The notes beneath the pieces are model-generated. The model saw only the letters and a program-made list of their open reading frames with translations. It had not been told where the DNA came from and made no database searches. From the IMG/VR virus record IMGVR_UViG_3300042566_001608, positions 1 through 20,588 of that record: a DNA stretch of 20,588 nucleotides; one strand, 5' to 3'. Source of the DNA: a virus. Numbering within the stretch: the stretch's first letter is position 1; each line of letters opens with the position of its first letter. Position numbers and translations under genes: made by a program. Shown here piece by piece: positions 920 through 18,664 of this stretch.

Positions 920-1459
920 CCTTTCGCGCTTCAACCACCCAAACCAAGCAATGAGGCTCGCTTCTGCCTCCGCTTCGGGCAGCCGGATGCCGAGCAGCCT
1001 CTCCGCCATGCGGATGCTCTCCGCCTTCCCCGCCCGGCCGCCAGGAAGCCCGTAGGACGCCTTCCAGCGGCTCGCCGGCATGGTCATGTGCTCATCCACC
1101 TCCAGACACCTCAGAACAGCCTCTGCGGCCCCTGTGGCGCGCCCGAACATGAACGTGCTGGCAAGCCCCTGACCGGGCGCTGCGCCGACATCCTCGACGG
1201 CTGCCAGGCCGATCCGCCCGTGCTGCTGGAGCGTCCGGAGCAGCCAGGCCGCGTCGAGCCGCTTGTCATCGGTGATCGGCAGCCGGTCGCTCGACAGGTA
1301 GTCAGGCAATTCGCATCCCGGCGAACACCGCAAGATCGCCCACGCCCCTGACAGCCCCGGATCGAGGCCGAGCACGAGCGTCACGGGTGGCACGGTTGCC
1401 GCGGCAGGGCGCCCGCCTGCACTCGATGCACTCACACCCTCCCTATTGTAGGCACCCAT
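908..1459 (-). CDS. RuvC-like Holliday junction resolvase
   Basis: This 183-aa protein has the RuvC/RNase H-like endonuclease fold, which cuts branched DNA arising from recombination or replication before packaging. Visible motifs are LGLDPGLSGAW with the first catalytic Asp (D33), AAVEDVG with the second acid (E89), the conserved FMFGRATGAAEAVL helix region (103-116), and a C-terminal acidic cluster (E162, E164, E166) before ASLIAWFG, where RuvC carries its last two acids. The KAESIRMAERL helix (145-155) is also typical. The first 26 residues precede the fold and are not conserved-looking, so a later start is possible; the ATG at 1459 has only a GGGG stretch upstream, within an AT-rich leader. 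It sits between the primase and the small terminase, fitting a DNA-processing role. Confidence 0.8.
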   Translation of the reverse strand: MGAYNREGVSASSAGGRPAAATVPPVTLVLGLDPGLSGAWAILRCSPGCELPDYLSSDRLPITDDKRLDAAWLLRTLQQHGRIGLAAVEDVGAAPGQGLASTFMFGRATGAAEAVLRCLEVDEHMTMPASRWKASYGLPGGRAGKAESIRMAERLLGIRLPEAEAEASLIAWFGWLKRERACV

Positions 1460-1632
1460 AGTTATATATCCCCGTATTTATCGCCTATTTTCCGCCTATT
1501 TTCTCTCTCTTCTCTCTATAACTTATAGAAGGAGAATGCTGAGTGTACTGAGACAGAGAACAGCGAAGAACTGAACGGAACAGCGCGCAACGGGACGACA
1601 CCGCATCGCAAACCGGCATGCACTCACTGCAC
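1460..1632. promoter_or_regulatory. AT-rich spacer with tandem 11-bp repeats, candidate promoter or origin
   Basis: This is the most AT-rich stretch in the window (core about 1460-1545). It contains two perfect tandem copies of CGCCTATTTTC (1482-1492 and 1493-1503), a long CT-only tract (1503-1516), a palindrome CTATAACTTATAG (1516-1528), and a tandem TGCACTCAC pair beside the primase stop (about 1619-1636). It separates the primase-polymerase gene from the RuvC-like gene and must supply the leader of the latter. A promoter or a replication-origin melting region are both plausible; neither is shown by sequence alone. Confidence 0.45.
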
Positions 1633-4179
1633 TCACTCCCCGCCCCCCGCGCCATCGGCGATCGCCATCTTTGCGCGCCGAATTTCCCGCTCAATTTCCT
1701 CCGCCTGCTCCCGAATTTCCGGCGCCTCGGCAAACAGCCTCTCGCGCAGAGCCGTCCCCGTGAGTGCATCGCCCTCCCAAGCCTCCTTCCGCCACCACAC
1801 CCGGCGGCGCACGACGACGCCCATCGAGCGCGGCACCAGCCAGATCTGCGTGTCGCCATCGTTCGACCAGCCGGCCGCCTTCAGCCCGGCGCCGGCCTTC
1901 TGCTGGCTCCATGACACCTTGACGGAGCCGAAGCCCGAGCGCTGGGCGTTTTCGAAAGCCTCTTCGACCTCATTGGCCGAGATGACCGTGCGGCCCGTCT
2001 GCGCCGTCTGCGCCAGCCACTCCTCCACCCAGCGCTGAACCGGATGCCTGCCGGCTTCCGCCATCATCCGCTTCGCCGCGGTCGGAGCCGGGCAGCGGTG
2101 CGCGCTGTAGGTGCCGAGATCGCCCCACTGCGTGACGCCCACGCGGCGCTGCCGCAGCCAGGCCGCGACCGCCATCAGGTTCTCCTCGGTCATGTGGCCG
2201 CGGAGCTCCTCGATCTCCGGCGCCGTCAGCGTCGGCCCCGCGCAGAGCACGATGAAGAACCGCCGCTCATCGGCGCTCGGCAGCGCCAGCGCGTCGGCGT
2301 TGTTGGTGGTGAGGATCCAACAGGCATGATCGGGCGCGATGTAGGTGTCCCGATAGAGGCGCCGGGCGATCTGGGCCCCGCTGCTGTCGCCCGTGATCTT
2401 CTCCTTTAGAAAGTCGTACATGTCGGCCTTATGGAAGCTCGGGAGCTCGGCCACCGAGACGATGTGCTTCTCCACCCACGGCGTCTCGGTCTGCTCGGCG
2501 CGCAGCTTCATGCCGGCCACCCAGGCGACGTTGTGCCGCCCGATGCCGTACCGGATCCAGCAGTCGAGCAGCGTGTCCTTCCCGTTGCCCTGCTCGCCGA
2601 ACAGCACCGGAGCCCAGAGGCATTTCACCTCCGGCCGCTGGATGCGATCGGCGAAGTAGTCGAACAGCATGCCGAGCTCGTTCTCGTCGGGGATCAGGCG
2701 CTGGGCGAAGCGGATGAACCAGGCGATGCGAGGGTCATCGTCGCGGGAAGGCGCCATGCCGACCAGGCGCTCCGGCGGCGTCCATGTGTTGAACCAGAGC
2801 GCGGCCCCCTTGCCCTCGCCCCACTTGAAGCGCGCGAGCCGCTCGCGGCCGGGGAGGTGCAGCGTTCCGACGACCTGGCGCACGCCGGCCTCGATGGCGA
2901 AGTCTGCCGGCCTCTGAATGAGGCGGCCGTTCTTGTTCGTCGGGATCACATCGAGCAGCGCCAGGCCGAGATCGCTGGAGGTGTTGAAGCCCTCCTTCGT
3001 CAGCATCAGCCCGTTGTCGAGGCGCAGGAACTGCTCGCGGGCGGGCATCCAGGCCACCTTCGCCAACACCCCGCGCAGCACGTCCCGCTCGCCCGCCTGC
3101 TTCTCCCCCGCGGCCTCCATCGCGGCCACGCCAGCCGCGTCCCCGGCGTCGTCGAAGGCCTCGCGGGCGTTCACCCGCCGCGACGGGTGCGTCCAGTTGG
3201 GCTGATGGAAGCGGGCCTCATGCACCAGCGAGCCCATCCCGATGCGGTCAGGCGGCGAGGACGAGCCCCAGTGATCCCAGCGCTCCTCGCAGGCCGCCGG
3301 GTCATGCTTGCTGCTGCGCTCGGACCAGGCGGCCCATGCGTCGAAGCCATCCGGTGATCCGCCGGAGGCGCGCCAGGCGGCCATGCCGATCCGCGACCAG
3401 TCGTCCCACCCGAGATCCTCATTCGGGATCGCGGCCAGGGCGGCCACGATGTCCTCCACCTCCCCGAGCGCGTCAGGGTTCTGGGCGATCGGCGCGTCGC
3501 CGGTCACCGGCTTCTGACCGGCTGCCTGCACCGCCAGGTCCAGCACTACGTCCGAGATGTCGCCGAGCTCGTCGGCGCTGGCCGGGCCCGCGATCTGCTG
3601 GCCGGTGACGGTGATGTAGCGCGGCGCAAGGTGGTAGATCTCGACCTGGGCCCCCGCCACGCTGCCGTCCACGCGCAGCACCGACTGGAAGCCGGTGTCG
3701 AGGTCGCAGCGCCCGATCACCCGCAGCCCGGCCCCGCTGGGCGTCACCTCGACATACGCACCAGGGCACCGATCAAGGATCTCCTGCGCCCAAGCGTCGA
3801 GCTCGCCCGTCTCGGGGTGCCGGCACTTGTCCAGATCCAGGGCCCCGTACCCCTCCGCCTGGAGCAGCACCAGGCCGATGCCATCCGCCTGCCCGAGCCC
3901 GGCGGCCTGTTGCGCGTCCCGCAAGCTGCCCCAGGTCCGCGGGTCGTTCACCCGCGCCAGGCGGCCCGTCTGCGTCGGCCGGTAGGGCCGCTTGGTCGGC
4001 TTGCCATTGGCCCGCGCCTCCAGGCGCCAGATGACCCACAGCCTGCGATCGGCCAGCGGCGCGAGCGCAGCGGGCAGCGGCCTTGCTGTTGATGCGCTTG
4101 CACTCGCTGTGGATGCTGGTGCATCTCTTCCAGCGGCGCCCCTACTATCGGCGCCGGGCTGGCCTGACTTTTGGTTCAT
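1633..4179 (-). CDS. Primase-polymerase fused to SF3 helicase (phage replicase, NrS-1-like)
   Basis: This 848-aa protein probably opens the origin and primes or extends DNA. Residues 35-200 form an archaeo-eukaryotic-type primase-polymerase domain: LWVIWRLE near 47-54, the metal-binding D-L-D at 115-117 in ALDLDKC, TPSGAGLRVIG at 146-156, and IYHLAPRYITVTG at 181-193. Residues 245-325 resemble a PriCT-2 linker (DWSRIGMAAW, CEERWDHW). Residues 500-650 form the D5/DUF5906-type SF3 helicase with Walker A GEQGNGKDT (528-536), an acidic VAELP strand (575-579), sensor TTNN (624-627) and DERRF (637-641). The C-terminal 200 residues are unassigned. The frame extends to an ATG at 4239, but the ATG at 4179 has an excellent site (GGAGGTAGGAG), so I chose it. 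The usual His of the SGxGxH primase motif appears to be Arg here. Confidence 0.85.
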   Translation of the reverse strand: MNQKSGQPGADSRGAAGRDAPASTASASASTARPLPAALAPLADRRLWVIWRLEARANGKPTKRPYRPTQTGRLARVNDPRTWGSLRDAQQAAGLGQADGIGLVLLQAEGYGALDLDKCRHPETGELDAWAQEILDRCPGAYVEVTPSGAGLRVIGRCDLDTGFQSVLRVDGSVAGAQVEIYHLAPRYITVTGQQIAGPASADELGDISDVVLDLAVQAAGQKPVTGDAPIAQNPDALGEVEDIVAALAAIPNEDLGWDDWSRIGMAAWRASGGSPDGFDAWAAWSERSSKHDPAACEERWDHWGSSSPPDRIGMGSLVHEARFHQPNWTHPSRRVNAREAFDDAGDAAGVAAMEAAGEKQAGERDVLRGVLAKVAWMPAREQFLRLDNGLMLTKEGFNTSSDLGLALLDVIPTNKNGRLIQRPADFAIEAGVRQVVGTLHLPGRERLARFKWGEGKGAALWFNTWTPPERLVGMAPSRDDDPRIAWFIRFAQRLIPDENELGMLFDYFADRIQRPEVKCLWAPVLFGEQGNGKDTLLDCWIRYGIGRHNVAWVAGMKLRAEQTETPWVEKHIVSVAELPSFHKADMYDFLKEKITGDSSGAQIARRLYRDTYIAPDHACWILTTNNADALALPSADERRFFIVLCAGPTLTAPEIEELRGHMTEENLMAVAAWLRQRRVGVTQWGDLGTYSAHRCPAPTAAKRMMAEAGRHPVQRWVEEWLAQTAQTGRTVISANEVEEAFENAQRSGFGSVKVSWSQQKAGAGLKAAGWSNDGDTQIWLVPRSMGVVVRRRVWWRKEAWEGDALTGTALRERLFAEAPEIREQAEEIEREIRRAKMAIADGAGGGE

Positions 4180-4186
4180 GCTCCTA

Positions 4187-4196
4187 CCTCCAAACG
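4187..4196 (-). promoter_or_regulatory. Ribosome binding element CGTTTGGAGG that decides the primase start
   Basis: Read on the minus strand, CGTTTGGAGG followed by TAGGAGC leads straight into the ATG at 4179. This is much better than anything before the upstream ATG at 4239, so it fixes the primase-polymerase start. The same 10-mer precedes the starts at 6802 (6812-6821) and 6996 (7003-7012). Confidence 0.7.
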
Positions 4197-4197
4197 A

Positions 4198-4228
4198 TCG
4201 GCCCCGGCGGTTCGCCCGCCGGGGCCGA
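4198..4228. terminator. Perfect 13-bp hairpin between integrase and primase genes
   Basis: Arms 4198-4210 and 4216-4228 pair perfectly around a 5-base loop (TTCGC). The stem is almost pure G/C. On the minus strand it lies after the integrase stop and immediately before the primase ribosome binding site, with no T-run, so it could be a weak terminator or attenuator, or a leader structure affecting primase translation. Confidence 0.6.
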
Positions 4229-4296
4229 CATTGATGCAAGGTCTTGTGTGGTCAGCGCAAGCCACAGGATGTGGGGACGCCCGCACACGCGGCCCC
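4229..4296. other. Spacer downstream of the integrase gene, candidate attP location
   Basis: These 68 bases between the integrase stop and the 13-bp hairpin are the only non-coding DNA directly next to the integrase, so an attachment core or arm sites would most simply lie here. No tRNA-end similarity or clear core with flanking arms is visible. The placement is inference. Confidence 0.2.
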
Positions 4297-5466
4297 CTAC
4301 CTGTTGATGATCTGATCCATCGCTTCGGCCAGGGTGTCGTCGTCGTCCGGTAGGACGTGGCCGTAAACGCCGAGCGTCACGCTGATGTCGCTGTGGCCCA
4401 TGCGGCGCTGGACCGCCCGCGGCGACAGCTTCGCCCGCAGCAGGGCCGTGGCGTGCATGTGGCGGAGATCGTGCAGGGACAGGCTGGGGTAGCCCGCCTC
4501 GGTCAGCACCTCCGAGATCGCGCTCGACAGCCCGTCCAGGCTCCAGGGGCGACCGTGCGACGTGCGGAAGATGACCATGTCCTCGACCTCAACGGCCAAG
4601 CCGCCGGTTCGGAGCACGGCGACCTCGTCCCGGTGGCGCTGTTCGCGGAGCTCGACGAGGAGCGATTTCGGCACTTTCACTGTGCGCTGGCTGCTCTCGG
4701 TTTTCGTCTCGCCAACGCGCTGCGCGCCGTCTTCGTCGTAGTACGCAGCCCGCGATATGCTGACGCTGCCGGCGCGCCAGTTGATGTCCCTCCACTGGAG
4801 CGCGGCGATCTCCTGCCGCCTGGCGCCCGTCGCCAGCGCGAAACGCACCAACATACCTTTCCTGTGCCCGGCCACATGCGCCAGCACCTTCGCTTGGTCG
4901 GCGTCGGTCAGCACCACGCCCGCGCTCTTCGGCCGCCGCGGGAGGGGCAGATCATCCCAATGCGCCAGCTTTACCGACGCGCCGGCCGCCGCGGCGTCCT
5001 TCATGAGGCGCCTGCCGTAGGCTGCGGCGCCGCGGAGCCGGTGCGGCCCAAGCCCGCGCTTTGCGAGTGACACCAAGCCGTTCAGCACGTCCGTGCGGGT
5101 CAGGCTCGAGATCCGCTTCGGCCCCCAGGCGACCGTCACGTAGTGGCAGAGGCGGATGACGGTCCGCAGCGCCTGCGGCCTGTACACCTTCATGGTCTTC
5201 TGGGTGTCGAGCCATTGCTCCACCCAGGCCCCGACCGTCAGCGTGTCGAGGGGCGTCGGCCCGGCCAGGACGTTCGTCACATCAGCAGGCTCCCCGCCTG
5301 GCGTCGTCGCCAGGGCGACCATCAGGCGCGAGCGCTCCGCGTCCGCGTCCTTCCGGCTGCCTTTCACGGTCGCGTACTGGAACGCCCGCTTGCCGGCGGC
5401 GTCGCGCGTCTCGACGCGGACGGTCCAGACGCCGGGCTTGCGCTCGCGAACAGTGATGTTCGACAT
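4297..5466 (-). CDS. int: Tyrosine recombinase, phage integrase
   Basis: This 389-aa protein catalyses site-specific integration and excision of the phage genome. An N-terminal arm-binding region (about 1-60) begins with VRERKPGVWTVRVE, a SAM-like core-binding domain covers about 75-165, and the catalytic domain runs from about 185 to 375. The catalytic residues are visible: R216 (TGARRQEI), K255 (ETKTESSQR), H332 and R335 (LHDLRH), H358 (RRMGHSD) and the nucleophile Y368 (GVYGH). The length is normal and the gene intact. Its ATG is 3 bases after the preceding stop codon, with the GGAGGG site lying inside the previous gene's end, so translation is probably coupled. It lies inside the phage gene order, not at a visible end, which implies that either the window is from the free phage map or the att site is close by. 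Confidence 0.93.
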   Translation of the reverse strand: MSNITVRERKPGVWTVRVETRDAAGKRAFQYATVKGSRKDADAERSRLMVALATTPGGEPADVTNVLAGPTPLDTLTVGAWVEQWLDTQKTMKVYRPQALRTVIRLCHYVTVAWGPKRISSLTRTDVLNGLVSLAKRGLGPHRLRGAAAYGRRLMKDAAAAGASVKLAHWDDLPLPRRPKSAGVVLTDADQAKVLAHVAGHRKGMLVRFALATGARRQEIAALQWRDINWRAGSVSISRAAYYDEDGAQRVGETKTESSQRTVKVPKSLLVELREQRHRDEVAVLRTGGLAVEVEDMVIFRTSHGRPWSLDGLSSAISEVLTEAGYPSLSLHDLRHMHATALLRAKLSPRAVQRRMGHSDISVTLGVYGHVLPDDDDTLAEAMDQIINR

Positions 5467-7475: not shown

Positions 7476-7724
7476 GCCGTTTTCTTTCTTCTTACCCGGC
7501 GCGTAGGCGCGCCGCGCTCACCGTAACCGATTGCGCTTGGCGCACCAACAGCGAACCAGCGCGCACACCACAAAAAACCATGCATTAACATTTGGCTAGA
7601 TAATGCCCCCCCCGTTAACTATTTCGTGATCGTCCAGTTTCCTATCCGTTTCAAACGACTACAGCCCGCGGGTGAGATGATCCCTTGGTTTGACGCGAGA
7701 TCACTTTGTGTTGAACGTAAACAC
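7476..7724. promoter_or_regulatory. Divergent control region between repressor and early operon
   Basis: This 249-base region contains no convincing gene. It holds a GGCGCG/CGCGCC dyad (7498-7513), TTGCGCTTGGCGCAC (7531-7545, one mismatch from a perfect TTGCG-N5-CGCAA dyad), an AT-rich segment with a possible rightward -10 element GATAAT (7599-7604), a run of eight C, and TTGACG (about 7690). Repressor operators and both divergent promoters should lie here. A GTG at 7626 opens a frame in phase with the next gene, but it has no ribosome binding site. Confidence 0.55.
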
Positions 7725-7961
7725 ATGCACAACACACAAGCACCCGCCACGACGCCGCTCCGCCGCACCATAGACGCGAAGGACGCGGCTGTATTCCTCG
7801 GCCTGCCGCTGCGGACGATCTACGACCTCTGCCGCAAGGACCGGCTGCCGCACATCAAGTTCGGCTCCCGCGTCCTGTTCCTGCCCGACGCGCTGGAGCA
7901 GCACCTCCGGGCGCAGATGCGCGGCGGCCACGCCGCCGCCCCGGTCGATCCGCTGTCCTGA
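7725..7961 (+). CDS. MerR/excisionase-type helix-turn-helix protein
   Basis: This 78-aa protein consists mainly of one HTH_17-type winged HTH: TIDAKDAAVFLGLPLRTIY (15-33), then LCRKDRLPHIKFGSRVLFLPDALEQHL (35-61), with the R-L-P-H-I-K-F-G wing typical of phage excisionases and similar small regulators. It may assist integrase in excision or act as the first early regulator. The start is uncertain: the ATG at 7725 lies just ahead of the domain but lacks a clear ribosome binding site, and in-frame GTG 7626 and ATG 7677 exist. Its TGA overlaps the ATG of the helicase gene by one base, so the two are coupled. Confidence 0.75.
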   Translation: MHNTQAPATTPLRRTIDAKDAAVFLGLPLRTIYDLCRKDRLPHIKFGSRVLFLPDALEQHLRAQMRGGHAAAPVDPLS

Positions 7962-14162: not shown

Positions 14163-14437
14163 AGGCCCAGGAGCACAGCGACACCAGCGCCGCGGCGGCG
14201 GAGGCGATCGAGCCCGCCGCGGCAACGCTCCGCATGGCGGTGCTCGGCGTCATCGCCGCGACCGGCGGGGCGACCGACGAGGAGATCCAGGCCGCGCTCG
14301 GCCTGGCGGGCAACACGCAGCGCCCGCGGCGTGTCGAGCTCTGCGAGGCCGGGCGCGTCGTGGACAGCGGCGCGCGTCGTCGCGCGAAGAGCGGTCGCCA
14401 GGCCGCGGTGTGGATCATCAAGCCGGAGTGGTGGTGA
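14159..14437 (+). CDS. Small winged-helix-like phage protein
   Basis: This 92-aa protein starts with the ATG at 14159, overlapping the polymerase stop (ATGA). It ends with TGA, of which the last base begins the next ATG. After an Ala-rich start, residues 25-92 look like a winged helix: a GGATDEEIQAALGL helix pair, NTQRPRRVELCEAGRVV, and a DSGARRR...GRQAAVW wing. This pattern occurs in small phage proteins next to replication genes. DNA binding is likely, the precise role unknown. Confidence 0.7.
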   Translation: MKAQEHSDTSAAAAEAIEPAAATLRMAVLGVIAATGGATDEEIQAALGLAGNTQRPRRVELCEAGRVVDSGARRRAKSGRQAAVWIIKPEWW

Positions 14438-14721
14438 TGCACCGGACCATTCTGAACCCCGCCGAGCGCGTCTTCGCCCACGCTCTCGGGGCCGCGCTGG
14501 AAGAGCAGCGCCGGGCGGCCGGGCTGTCGAAGGCCGAGCTCGCCCGGCGCCTCGGCCTGGCGGAGAGCACGATCTTACGCTGGGAAGATGGGCGGGGTAT
14601 CCCGCACCTCAGTCTGCTGCGGCGGGTGGCGGTCGAGCTCGGGACCACCGCCCTGGTGCTGCTGTTCCGCGCCGAGCGCCGCGCCGTCGCGGCCCCGGCA
14701 CCCGCGGGTGAAAACGGGTGA
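14437..14721 (+). CDS. Second XRE-family regulator
   Basis: This 94-aa protein has a Cro/C1-type HTH at about 14-75: LEEQRRAAGLSKAELARRLG (21-40) and LAESTILRWEDGRGIP (41-56), ending in a hydrophobic LGTTALVLLFRAE helix. The ATG at 14437 overlaps the preceding TGA by one base. It closes the rightward operon. The last 17 bases of the gene contain the first two CGGGTGA repeats of the array that follows, so self-regulation or action on the convergent junction is possible. A role as a late switch or Cro-like factor is inferred from position. Confidence 0.78.
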   Translation: MHRTILNPAERVFAHALGAALEEQRRAAGLSKAELARRLGLAESTILRWEDGRGIPHLSLLRRVAVELGTTALVLLFRAERRAVAAPAPAGENG

Positions 14722-14750
14722 CGGGGTGACGGGCGGGTGAAGGCGGGTGA
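14705..14750 (+). repeat. Five direct GGGTGA repeats, about one helical turn apart
   Basis: GGGTGA occurs at 14706, 14716, 14724, 14735 and 14745; four of the five are CGGGTGA. Start-to-start distances are 10, 8, 11 and 10 bases, so all lie on roughly the same face of the helix. Three further copies follow: 14846-14852 and 14895-14901 forward, and 14855-14861 inverted. Iteron-like protein-binding arrays look like this. The first copies fall in the coding end of the XRE gene. Confidence 0.55.
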
Positions 14751-14814
14751 CAGATTGGCCGGAAAGCCTAGACTTACATGAAAAACAAGGGATGCCCCAT
14801 TTCTCTCGGTGTCG

Positions 14815-14829
14815 TTGCGTACATTGCAA
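14815..14829. promoter_or_regulatory. 15-bp palindrome TTGCGTACATTGCAA, candidate operator
   Basis: This dyad has the same half-sites and the same 15-base length as those at 903-917 and 7047-7061. It lies between two convergent operons, where a promoter is not expected, so if it binds protein it may act on DNA structure or on an unseen antisense promoter. Confidence 0.35.
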
Positions 14830-14844
14830 ACCAATGCTTTAGGC

Positions 14845-14901
14845 GCGGGTGATTTCACCCGCCGACCCGATTTTGCACCCATTGCGGGGGTCGGCGGGTG
14901 A
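14845..14901. terminator. Nested inverted repeats, probable bidirectional terminator
   Basis: A perfect 8-bp dyad around TT (14845-14862) overlaps a second, perfect 14-bp inverted repeat (14855-14868 with 14888-14901; 19-base loop). The two pairings share an arm and so are mutually exclusive. A TTTT lies in the loop (14871-14874). Position between convergent operons favours termination from both sides; the alternative is a protein-binding site. Confidence 0.5.
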
Positions 14902-14935: not shown

Positions 14936-16951
14936 CTAGTCGAGGAGCCCGCGGCGGAGCTCGTCGGCCGGGACGCTGGTGCCCAGGAGGGAGCCAGCGC
15001 GAGCGGCCAGCATGGGGTTGATGCCTCCCCGCCGGGCCGCCTCCGCAGCCAGGGCGGCGTCCACCCTGCGCGCGGCGGCTGCCTGCTGGGCGGGGTCGGT
15101 GGTGGAAAGGAGACGGGCGAGGGCGTCGTTGCGCCGTTCGGCCGAGCCTTGCATCACCCGGCGTGCCCCGGCCCCCGCCAGGCCAGCCGTAGCGCCCAAG
15201 GCCGCGCCGGGGCCGAAGCCGCCGCCGCCGAGCCAGTACTCGCTCAGGCCACCGGCCGCCCCGCCACCCGCGGCCCCGGTCGCGAGCTCCTGCATCGCGG
15301 CCTGGCGCCGGGCCGTTGCGCTGTTCCGCAGCACCGTGTTCTCGAAAGCGGCACCCGCGGTTTCGCTGCCCAGTGCTGTCGGGCTCGTCCCAAGGTAACG
15401 GGCCAGCAGATCGAACCGGCGAGCCGCGTCGCCAGGCGCCAAGCCCAGCGCGTCGGTGAGCACGCGGATCTGGTCGCGCTCCATGTCGGTGTCGAAGACC
15501 GCGCGCACAGGGTTCGCCGTGCCGGTCCTCGGGACGGTACGGAGCCGGTCGCGGAGCGCGTTCATACCGCCTTCCACGAAGTGCATCCGCTCGGTGTCGG
15601 TCATGCGCTCGATCGTCGTCCGCAGTTCGGTGGGACGGGTTCGGAAGATATTCCGGCCGAGATCGAGGGCGTCGTTGTGCGCGCTCGGGCCAGCCCACAG
15701 AAGCCGCGCCTGCCGGTAAAGGCTCGTGCCATCGGGCTGCACCGTGAGGTCGTCCAGCCGATCAACGATCTGATCGCGCAGCCGGCGGGCAGAAACCGAC
15801 ACCGGGCTGCCTCGGCCGGAGCCGCGGAGCTCGCGCTCGATCAGTTGGTCCAGGCCTTCCTTCGCCGACATCAGATCCGCGATCGTGGGCTGGCTGTTCG
15901 CGGTTGCGGGGCGCCCTTCCAGCGTCGAGATGGTGCGGGCGTCACCGGCTGCCGGCTGTGCGCGGCGCCAGAGCGAGACATCAAGGTCGGTCTGGAGCGG
16001 CGCGTTGTTGGAGCGCACGGCGGTGTAGAGCGGCCCCGCGTCCTGGCTGCGCTGCGTGAACAGCGCCTGCTTGCGGATATATGCGTCTTCGGCATCGCCG
16101 AAGGTCGTCTTGAGCGCCTCAAGGATGCGGTCCATTCGGCCGCCCTGGCGCGTCTCAAGCTGGCGCGTCAGGTTCGCCATCGCCTCGCCGGGCTGCTGCG
16201 CGAGGGCTTCCAGCGCGGTGCGGCTGTTCGGCCCCATCGCCTCCGCCAGCGTCGTGCCGGTGTCGGGAAGCCCGGCGGCGGCGCGCTCGGCCCGATCGTC
16301 GGCCGACGCCTCGACCGCCCGCAGCGCGGCCCCTGGCGCCGGTTGGTCGCGCGCCACCTGTTGCGCCAGAAGGCGATCCGCGGCGCCCTGCGGGTTAGCA
16401 AAGTCCCGGAAGGACTGAGCGGTCCTCTGCGCCAGCGGCCGGGCGCCCTCAACGGCGGCCCCGCCCAGAGCGCCCACGCCTGCGCCTACGCCCGCGCCGA
16501 CAGCAGCGCCTGCTGCCATAGCGCCGACACCGCCCTCGGCGTCACCGACGCCCTGGAGGGCGCCCTGGCGCATGCCAGCGTTCGCCCCAGCCGTCGCGGC
16601 TTGGGCCACGCGGCTGCCGGTGGTGGCGGCCCGTGCGGCTTGGCCCGCGACGCCCAGGCCGGGGATCAGCAGCGTGGGCAGGCTGCCGGCCACCTCCAGG
16701 CCGGTCGCCAGCACCGGGCGCTCTGACCTGTAGCGCTCGACGTTCGCCCGCTCTTCCGCCAGCGCCTGGCGGTACGGCGACCCGAACAAGCTGCGGACGC
16801 CGGCCGTGATCTCGTCGCCGAAGCCGAAGGTGAGCCCCTGCGCGGCGGTCGCAACGCTACCGGGCAGCGCGGCACGAGAGGCCTGCTCACGGCGCCCGGA
16901 AACACGCAGCACCTCATCGAGGAAGCGGTCGATCTCGTCGTTGGTCGCCAT
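14936..16951 (-). CDS. Large Ala/Gly-rich virion or DNA-ejection protein
   Basis: This 671-aa protein is the last gene of the leftward late operon. The N-terminal part has FGFGDEITAGVRSLFGSPY (42-60), a spaced-Arg helix and NVERYRSERPVLATGLEVAG (70-89), a segment widely conserved in internal virion proteins of short-tailed phages. Hydrophobic glycine-rich stretches at about 85-100 and 140-168, and another near 545-590 (GGLSEYWLGGGGFGPG), could insert into membranes. The middle (170-540) is helical and charged. It probably travels with the DNA into the cell. No lysozyme or transglycosylase motif is visible. The ATG at 16951 has TGGAG nine bases upstream, inside the end of the preceding gene. 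Confidence 0.72.
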   Translation of the reverse strand: MATNDEIDRFLDEVLRVSGRREQASRAALPGSVATAAQGLTFGFGDEITAGVRSLFGSPYRQALAEERANVERYRSERPVLATGLEVAGSLPTLLIPGLGVAGQAARAATTGSRVAQAATAGANAGMRQGALQGVGDAEGGVGAMAAGAAVGAGVGAGVGALGGAAVEGARPLAQRTAQSFRDFANPQGAADRLLAQQVARDQPAPGAALRAVEASADDRAERAAAGLPDTGTTLAEAMGPNSRTALEALAQQPGEAMANLTRQLETRQGGRMDRILEALKTTFGDAEDAYIRKQALFTQRSQDAGPLYTAVRSNNAPLQTDLDVSLWRRAQPAAGDARTISTLEGRPATANSQPTIADLMSAKEGLDQLIERELRGSGRGSPVSVSARRLRDQIVDRLDDLTVQPDGTSLYRQARLLWAGPSAHNDALDLGRNIFRTRPTELRTTIERMTDTERMHFVEGGMNALRDRLRTVPRTGTANPVRAVFDTDMERDQIRVLTDALGLAPGDAARRFDLLARYLGTSPTALGSETAGAAFENTVLRNSATARRQAAMQELATGAAGGGAAGGLSEYWLGGGGFGPGAALGATAGLAGAGARRVMQGSAERRNDALARLLSTTDPAQQAAAARRVDAALAAEAARRGGINPMLAARAGSLLGTSVPADELRRGLLD

Positions 16952-16957
16952 GATCGA

Positions 16958-18664
16958 CTACTCCACCAGAGAGGGGTTGATGTTGGCGGCCCGCGCCGCG
17001 CGACGGCGCGCTTCGATGTCGCCGGGGAACCTTGTGCGGATGCGCTCGGCGATCTGCGCTTCGGAGGCGTTGGGCGGGCGCGGGACGCGGGGGGCGGCGC
17101 CTTCGCTGTTCGCACGCGCGGCTTCCGCGGCGGCCCGGCGCTCCGCCACAACGTCGCGGAAGCCAGGGACGACGTTCTCCGGGTTGAGGCCGCGGCGCGT
17201 TGCGAGGCCGGTGTAGAAACCGCCCACCTCGTTGACCTCATTGCGGTACACTTGCATGCGGTCGTCGGCCACCGAGCGCATCTGGGCGATGGTGCTGGTG
17301 GTGAGCGCAGCGCCCTGGTTGACCCGCGCGATTTGGGCCTGCATCCAGCCAGGCAGGCCGCTCGTGCGCTGGATCGTGACCACCTCTTCGCCGCGCACAA
17401 CGCTGCCGGGGTCGAGGATGTTGGCGAGGGCGAACACGGCGTCGAGCGCCGCCACTTGGTCGTATTGCCCGGTGCGGGCGCCTGTCTCGATGCGGTCGAG
17501 GGCCGTGTGGATCGTGCCGTAAAGCGGGACGCTCTGGGTGAAGCGCTGCACCTGGGGCTGGCGCAGGAACTCCCCGCGCAGCGGGTCTTCCTGTTCAGCA
17601 AGGCGCGGCGTCTCACGCGTAGCCAGGGCGCGGATGGCTTGGTCCTGCTCCTCGCGCGTACCGAGCGACGCGATCATGCGGGCGCTCTGCGCCGGCACCC
17701 CAAGCCCGGTGATCTGGGTTTCCGACAGCACCGGGCCCCGCTCGTTCGCCGGGCCGTAATCGCGGCCGAGCTCGCCACTCGGCAGCATCTCGCGCACCCG
17801 GCCACCACTTGTGATGGTCTGCACGGTGGGCGGGTTGCGGGTCAGCCAGTCAGAGACAATGCGCTGGCCCCCTTCATGGTCGCCGCGTGCGAAGCTCTCG
17901 GCCGCAAGGACGCGGAGCTCGGCCGGCATGTTGGCAAGCGAATTGCCGTTGAAGCCCGGCGTGCGGGGCGCGGCCCCCTGCACTGGAGCCGCGAGCGCGG
18001 CCTGCTGCGGCGTTAGCGCGGGCGCGGGCGGGGTCGTGGGCGGGGCGGCGGGCCGTCCCCCCGGCATCCCGGCGATGGCGCCGTTGTTGATCGCCATGAG
18101 CCGCTCTTCGTAGTCCGGCGCGTTCGGGTCCAGCGCGTTGCGTGCGGCGATACGCTGCGAGACCGCCAGAGGCGCTTCGCCACGCTGGGCCACAGGGGCC
18201 ATGAGCGGTGCCGGAGCCGGAGCCGTGGGGGTGGCGGCACCCGGAGCCGTGGGGGTGGCGGCACCCGGAGCCGTGGGGGTGGCGGCACCACCGCCCAAGA
18301 GAAAGTTCGCCATCCGCAGGCCGGACGCCACTTGTCCCTCACGCTGGGCGATCTGGCTGCGAAGCGCCCGCTGCTGGAGCATCTGCTGACCGGCCTGGTC
18401 GCCGGCCTGCATCGCCGCCATCGGCGCCTGCGCTGCCTGCGAAAGCGCTTGCGCGCGAAGCGCACCGGCCTGGGCAAGCGGAATGCCGCCCTGGCCCGCC
18501 GCCATCAGGCTCGGGCCGAGCGTGCCCAGCAGCGCCTGCATCGAGCGCTGGCGCGCGAAGGCCTGCTCCTCCGGCGTCATGCCGGGAAGGCCGAACATCG
18601 GGGGCTGGGGCGTCGCGGGGCTCGCGCCGCCGCCAAGCCCGAAGAAGTCGAGGAGGCCCTGCAT
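16958..18664 (-). CDS. Internal virion/structural protein with Pro-Thr-Ala repeat linker
   Basis: This 568-aa protein starts at the ATG at 18664 with a GAGGAGA site overlapping the previous stop. Residues 1-122 are Met/Gln/Ala-rich helices. Residues about 125-225 form a low-complexity linker of Ala, Pro and Thr that includes three copies of an eight-residue unit (A-A-T-P-T-A-P-G). The C-terminal half is a folded domain (about 340-520) with RQPQVQRFTQSVPLYGTIH, LDAVFALANILDPGSVVRGEE and VGGFYTGLATRRGLNPE, a layout common to podovirus internal or DNA-ejection proteins in which 'kvlDPgSVVRegE' is conserved. No enzyme motif is visible. The gene is six bases from the downstream 671-aa gene, and both probably assemble into the same internal structure. 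Confidence 0.75.
   Translation of the reverse strand: MQGLLDFFGLGGGASPATPQPPMFGLPGMTPEEQAFARQRSMQALLGTLGPSLMAAGQGGIPLAQAGALRAQALSQAAQAPMAAMQAGDQAGQQMLQQRALRSQIAQREGQVASGLRMANFLLGGGAATPTAPGAATPTAPGAATPTAPAPAPLMAPVAQRGEAPLAVSQRIAARNALDPNAPDYEERLMAINNGAIAGMPGGRPAAPPTTPPAPALTPQQAALAAPVQGAAPRTPGFNGNSLANMPAELRVLAAESFARGDHEGGQRIVSDWLTRNPPTVQTITSGGRVREMLPSGELGRDYGPANERGPVLSETQITGLGVPAQSARMIASLGTREEQDQAIRALATRETPRLAEQEDPLRGEFLRQPQVQRFTQSVPLYGTIHTALDRIETGARTGQYDQVAALDAVFALANILDPGSVVRGEEVVTIQRTSGLPGWMQAQIARVNQGAALTTSTIAQMRSVADDRMQVYRNEVNEVGGFYTGLATRRGLNPENVVPGFRDVVAERRAAAEAARANSEGAAPRVPRPPNASEAQIAERIRTRFPGDIEARRRAARAANINPSLVE
18219..18290. repeat. Three tandem 24-bp repeats within a virion gene
   Basis: Units at 18219-18242, 18243-18266 and 18267-18290 are identical except for the final base of the third. 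They stay in frame and encode the A-A-T-P-T-A-P-G units of the linker in the 568-aa protein. The near-perfect DNA identity indicates recent duplication or slippage. Confidence 0.9.

Follow-up and report, generated by a model that had tools for sequence, protein, structure and literature searches.

Iteron origins are known from primase-helicase replicons of the P4-like kind, and phage attachment sites (attP) usually adjoin the integrase gene (int). In phage lambda, the N-terminal domains of the integrase hold the arm repeats and the catalytic domains work at the core (PMC4880445). The published attP of an oenophage has 10-bp arm repeats, with two in one arm and four in the opposite arm (PMC8074189), and excisionase-type direct repeats one helical turn apart, the Apl sites, are found in phage 186, with five at its att site (PMC7498355). 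The locus described here lies in a virus contig of 20,588 bases, analysed as a whole and called the window. Like the lambda-type attP (PMC4880445; PMC8074189), it shows short direct repeats spaced by about one turn in both arms around a putative core, uneven copy numbers per arm, and an integrase with a predicted extra N-terminal domain. It differs in its arm word, CGGGTGA, and in its location where the early and late operons converge, at a distance from the integrase gene that is 9–12 kb across the window and two relatives. We consider the gap at 14698–14901 to be probably an attP, with the CGGGTGA repeats as arm sites of the tyrosine integrase. This would make it a familiar type of element at an unfamiliar location; excisionase sites are an improbable answer, a replication origin a slightly less probable one, and what little is left falls to a transcription element or something else.

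The last genes of the plus-strand operon are those of polymerase A, a small ORF and XRE, and the minus-strand operon closes with the gene of a 671-aa protein that resembles PHROG 5880. Between 14705 and 14901 there are seven exact copies of CGGGTGA, six on the plus strand (14705, 14715, 14734, 14744, 14846 and 14895) and one on the minus strand (14855). The first-pass annotation had described a phased run of five direct copies. This run exists, with steps of 8–11 bp (about 10 bp), but four of its members are exact and the fifth, at 14723, is GGGGTGA, with one mismatch to CGGGTGA. The rest of that description was borne out: the run begins inside the XRE gene (14437–14721), whose final codons contain the first two exact copies; two direct copies and an inverted one follow; and the hairpins formed by 14845–14852 with 14855–14862 and by 14855–14868 with 14888–14901 have one arm in common and are thus mutually exclusive. 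The inverted near-copy at the outer end of the run had escaped it (Table 1). Two near-identical contigs match 1400 bases around the array exactly and, being near-identical, contribute no independent evidence.

Table 1. Coordinates of the repeat elements and of the genes discussed, as positions in the window.
Feature	Position	Strand	Basis or remark
Inverted near-copy GCACCCG, outer end of P arm	14698..14704	-	Sequence; MJing1 and G003 also have an inverted copy at this end
P arm: four exact CGGGTGA copies plus GGGGTGA, at a spacing of about one helical turn	14705..14750	+	Spacing matched in G003 and MJing1
Lower-GC stretch between arms; predicted crossover core ~14785-14825	14751..14845		Position projected from G003
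P' arm short hairpin: direct copy 14846-14852, inverted copy 14855-14861	14846..14861		Sequence
14-bp perfect inverted repeat, 19-nt loop, near late operon end	14855..14901		Includes inverted copy and distal direct copy
Distal P' copy CGGGTGA	14895..14901	+	151 bp from start of last P-arm copy
Tyrosine integrase, 389 aa, proposed repeat ligand	4297..5466	-	Pfam Phage_integrase, PHROG integrase
Primase-helicase	1633..4239		Encoded elsewhere in the window
HTH_17 protein: candidate excisionase/regulator and alternative ligand of the repeats	7626..7961	+	Pfam HTH_17, PHROG 66 excisionase
Candidate replication origin, apart from array: GAGTGCA pairs flanking AT-rich DNA	1418..1634	-	3' end of primase-helicase gene

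A count of CGGGTGA over the whole window, which the same annotation had proposed, gave 12 copies versus 3.87 expected, a number reached in 0 of 100 shuffles. When the gap itself was shuffled (n = 1000), no 7-mer exceeded four copies, compared with seven in the real gap. When the whole 20.6 kb was shuffled (n = 100), one shuffle attained seven copies of some 7-mer within 220 bp, so the copy number by itself is not overwhelming and the stronger argument is conservation.

The Microcystis phage MJing1 (OQ540923.1) has the same gene order as the window, and its homologous convergent gap (15744–15960) contains GTACCCG (minus strand) and CGGGTAC (plus strand) copies together with one distal CGGGTAC. 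In a third phage, G003, the left arm contains three exact CGGGTAC copies and the right arm one, with one more located elsewhere. With the start of the last P-arm copy taken as zero, the copies stand at 0, -10, -20, -29 and -39 in the window (inverted copy at -46), at 0, -9, -20 and -26 in MJing1 (inverted at -39), and at 0, -10 and -20 in G003 (inverted at -29), and the distal P' copy lies at +151, +142 and +142 bp, respectively. The intervening sequences differ, so the layout has been retained despite changed sequence and even a changed repeat word. MJing1 also carries a 14-bp inverted repeat, unrelated in sequence, at the same place as that of the window. Loss of the spacing in related phages was among the findings that the first-pass annotation had named as fatal to its idea of a phased, protein-binding array in the convergent gap; the spacing is kept, and the idea, as far as sequence can tell, looks right. 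Of the two proteins it had proposed for binding tests, the 94-aa XRE protein is not the likely ligand: no XRE match was found in G003, and in MJing1 its position is taken by an HNH gene and a hypothetical gene, yet both phages carry arrays. An operator for XRE was accordingly rejected, as array-bearing relatives do without the gene.

The sequence of G003 (44,314 bases) starts after the polymerase gene and ends after the gene of the 671-like protein, which places its opening in the homologous gap. Both ends carry GGTTAACTCAAGG as a direct repeat, a 13-bp attL/attR pair, and the DNA beyond the left repeat comprises the 3' end of a flgD-like gene (the FLgD_tudor match is weak and sub-threshold). 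The flanking DNA is 78% identical over 82 bases to an Acetobacterales genome, at the locus of its flgD-like protein. From these ends we read G003 as an integrated prophage bounded within the homologous gap. Counted from where the last P-arm copy starts, the 13-bp repeat lies at 50–62 bp; it is 43 bp from the end of the array on one side, and an exact copy and a near-copy are found on the other side. Repeats flank a known crossover core in G003, and in the window they would do so judging by position; prophage ends inside the site, att repeats and host DNA beyond them are seen in G003, the relative. The functions suggested in the first-pass annotation, an origin, a late-switch element or a transcription roadblock, become less likely given that G003 is integrated through the homologous gap.

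The window encodes a tyrosine integrase, and integrases of the same clade are encoded by MJing1 and G003 (35–36% identical to that of the window). Tn1549 Int is among the nearest solved structures. The approximately 60 extra N-terminal residues are predicted to form three strands and a helix, with a pLDDT of 81 for the model of this domain and a poor-quality model for the full-length protein. Three strands and a helix are the topology of the lambda- and Tn916-type arm-binding domains; a Pfam match identifying the domain as arm-binding was not obtained, and the fold search was not informative. The second strand reads W-R-L-R in MJing1, G003 and a further integrase (L163), all with the word CGGGTAC, and W-T-V-R in the window, with CGGGTGA, in the four cases compared. 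The L163 integrase is 31% identical, and about 20 bp after its gene begins a 167-bp stretch flanked on either side by CGGGTAC pairs.

In the proposed mechanism, the P arm comprises one inverted and five direct copies and the P' arm three. By analogy with lambda, these repeats would be gripped by the N-terminal domain of the integrase that the phage itself encodes, which would bring the subunits to the core between the arms, where strand exchange with a host attB would take place. Integration would leave the ends of the polymerase operon and the late operon at the two prophage borders, reading towards the host. The attP reading is favoured by the P-to-P' distance of 142, 142 and 151 bp in three phages that share one integrase clade, and by the L163 gene being directly followed by CGGGTAC pairs around 167 bp. 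It is also favoured by the relatives G005, G009 and G010, which retain the primase without an intact clade integrase (none in G010, fragments in G005 and G009) and have no array of CGGGTGA or CGGGTAC. Against it count the distance of 9–12 kb between site and integrase gene in all three phages (9.2 kb in the window), the presence of arrays of both words beside primase genes in unrelated viruses, and the shortness of the 13-bp repeat in G003, the one prophage seen with such ends. A core and attB for the window, or a lysogen of its phage, were not found, the integrase search of approximately 1180 alphaproteobacterial genomes leading to Enterovirga alone; a search of Acetobacterales with the joined empty site of G003 returned no more than partial flgD-type matches. 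The Enterovirga prophage carries related genes for a polymerase, a primase and an integrase, and was rejected, being located in tRNA-His beside another integrase and lacking such an array.

It is also conceivable, although unlikely, that the array does lie in an attP and that the repeats are sites of an HTH_17 directionality factor which bends the arm for excision. A candidate HTH_17 protein is encoded in the window, with a weak homologue in G003, and the repeats at the att site resemble the excisionase-type direct repeats, one helical turn apart, of phage 186 (PMC7498355). Unlike the Apl sites, however, the copies occur on both sides of the core, and the early promoters have no second array, a single CGGGTGA being found at 7669, inside the HTH_17 gene itself. 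A second array at the early promoters is, to our knowledge, not universal among directionality factors (RDFs).

The view that the array is a replication origin, with iterons bound by the primase-helicase, became a serious candidate when 7 of 11 unrelated array families with CGGGTGA or CGGGTAC proved to have a gene for a primase or helicase no more than 200 bp from the array, a count that is partly circular, as the example proteins were drawn from the same loci, while the Pfam matches are independent. Such arrays (in L202, L234, L320, L323, L327, L335 and L360) resemble that of the window in words, spacing and lower-GC DNA between the repeat sets, and the primase is found in the window, MJing1 and G003. 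Arrays of a control word turned up next to primases too, in 2 of 13 cases; this rate is lower, so some enrichment of both words near primases is left unexplained. In the window, however, the array is 10.5 kb away from the primase-helicase gene, and other words are found there: GAGTGCA pairs (9 bp apart, 1418–1433 and 1619–1634) flank AT-rich DNA directly 3' of the gene, and in MJing1 (L037, 40395–40495) TGGTCAGGG repeats lie on either side of TATATATGTATTCATATG, also directly 3' of the primase gene, as a candidate origin. G009 and L060 likewise have GTGCA-containing repeats at this place. The lack of CGGGTGA or CGGGTAC arrays in G005, G009 and G010, whose primases are just 31–42% identical in the aligned part, so that their repeat word could differ, also speaks against an origin, as does GC skew, put forward as a check in the first-pass annotation, which does not invert at the gap in the window or MJing1. 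The origin reading is thus weakened, by the other-word repeats and by the control word, and must be considered quite unlikely. No origin was found in G003, so that its gap may have a double role. A combined arrangement, in which attP lies inside a two-sided iteron origin that is split by integration and rebuilt by excision, tying replication to the excised state, appears highly improbable.

That the gap is mainly a transcription element acting between the convergent operons, whether an XRE operator, a terminator working in both directions or a roadblock formed by a G-quadruplex, is just as doubtful as that arrangement. It is favoured by the XRE gene adjoining the array, by the 14-bp hairpins near the late operon end in the window and MJing1, and by GGG runs every 10 bp that fit a quadruplex pattern in the window and G003. 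Against it, there is no U tract, a terminator scan called no intrinsic terminator in the gap, the plus strand folds with a z-score of just -0.62, the G-runs are a consequence of the repeated word, the relatives have the arrays in common and not the XRE gene, and the prophage ends of G003 are left unexplained. No RNA family was matched.

If the attP reading is correct, the gap is the likely integration site for a little-studied group of GC-rich temperate phages, and attP can be remote from the gene of its integrase and sit where two operons converge. The paired integrases and arm words (CGGGTGA in the window, CGGGTAC in MJing1 and G003) would offer material for studying a change of arm-site specificity. 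A check of the remaining noncoding regions is needed if phased repeats of this kind are not to be mistaken for an origin.

Several further observations were made. The dense CGGGTAC/CGGGTGA arrays of the unrelated viruses listed above lie directly beside primase or helicase genes of the Prim-Pol, Toprim, VapE, DUF3987, DUF927 and AAA_25 families, and are probably origins with a shared word. Among the relatives without an array, integrase fragments adjoin the primase gene in G009 (L066, 3521–3988) and G005 (L442, 19326–19901), and two bases separate the polymerase from the late genes at the G005 locus L004; L066/L149 was rejected as a prophage, its contig ends overlapping by 127 bp, which makes it circular. 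The Enterovirga aerilata prophage (L196–L198, contig positions 206626–250756) measures 44 kb, is bounded by 46-bp repeats at tRNA-His and encodes two tyrosine integrases; TGTAAAC repeats occur close to one of its ends. The recorded assignment of MJing1 to Microcystis as host looks doubtful, given a GC content of 71% and the alphaproteobacterial hosts of its closest prophage relatives. Lastly, the gene of a 568-aa late protein in the window contains an in-frame 24-bp tandem repeat (18213–18290) that encodes ATPTAPGA units.
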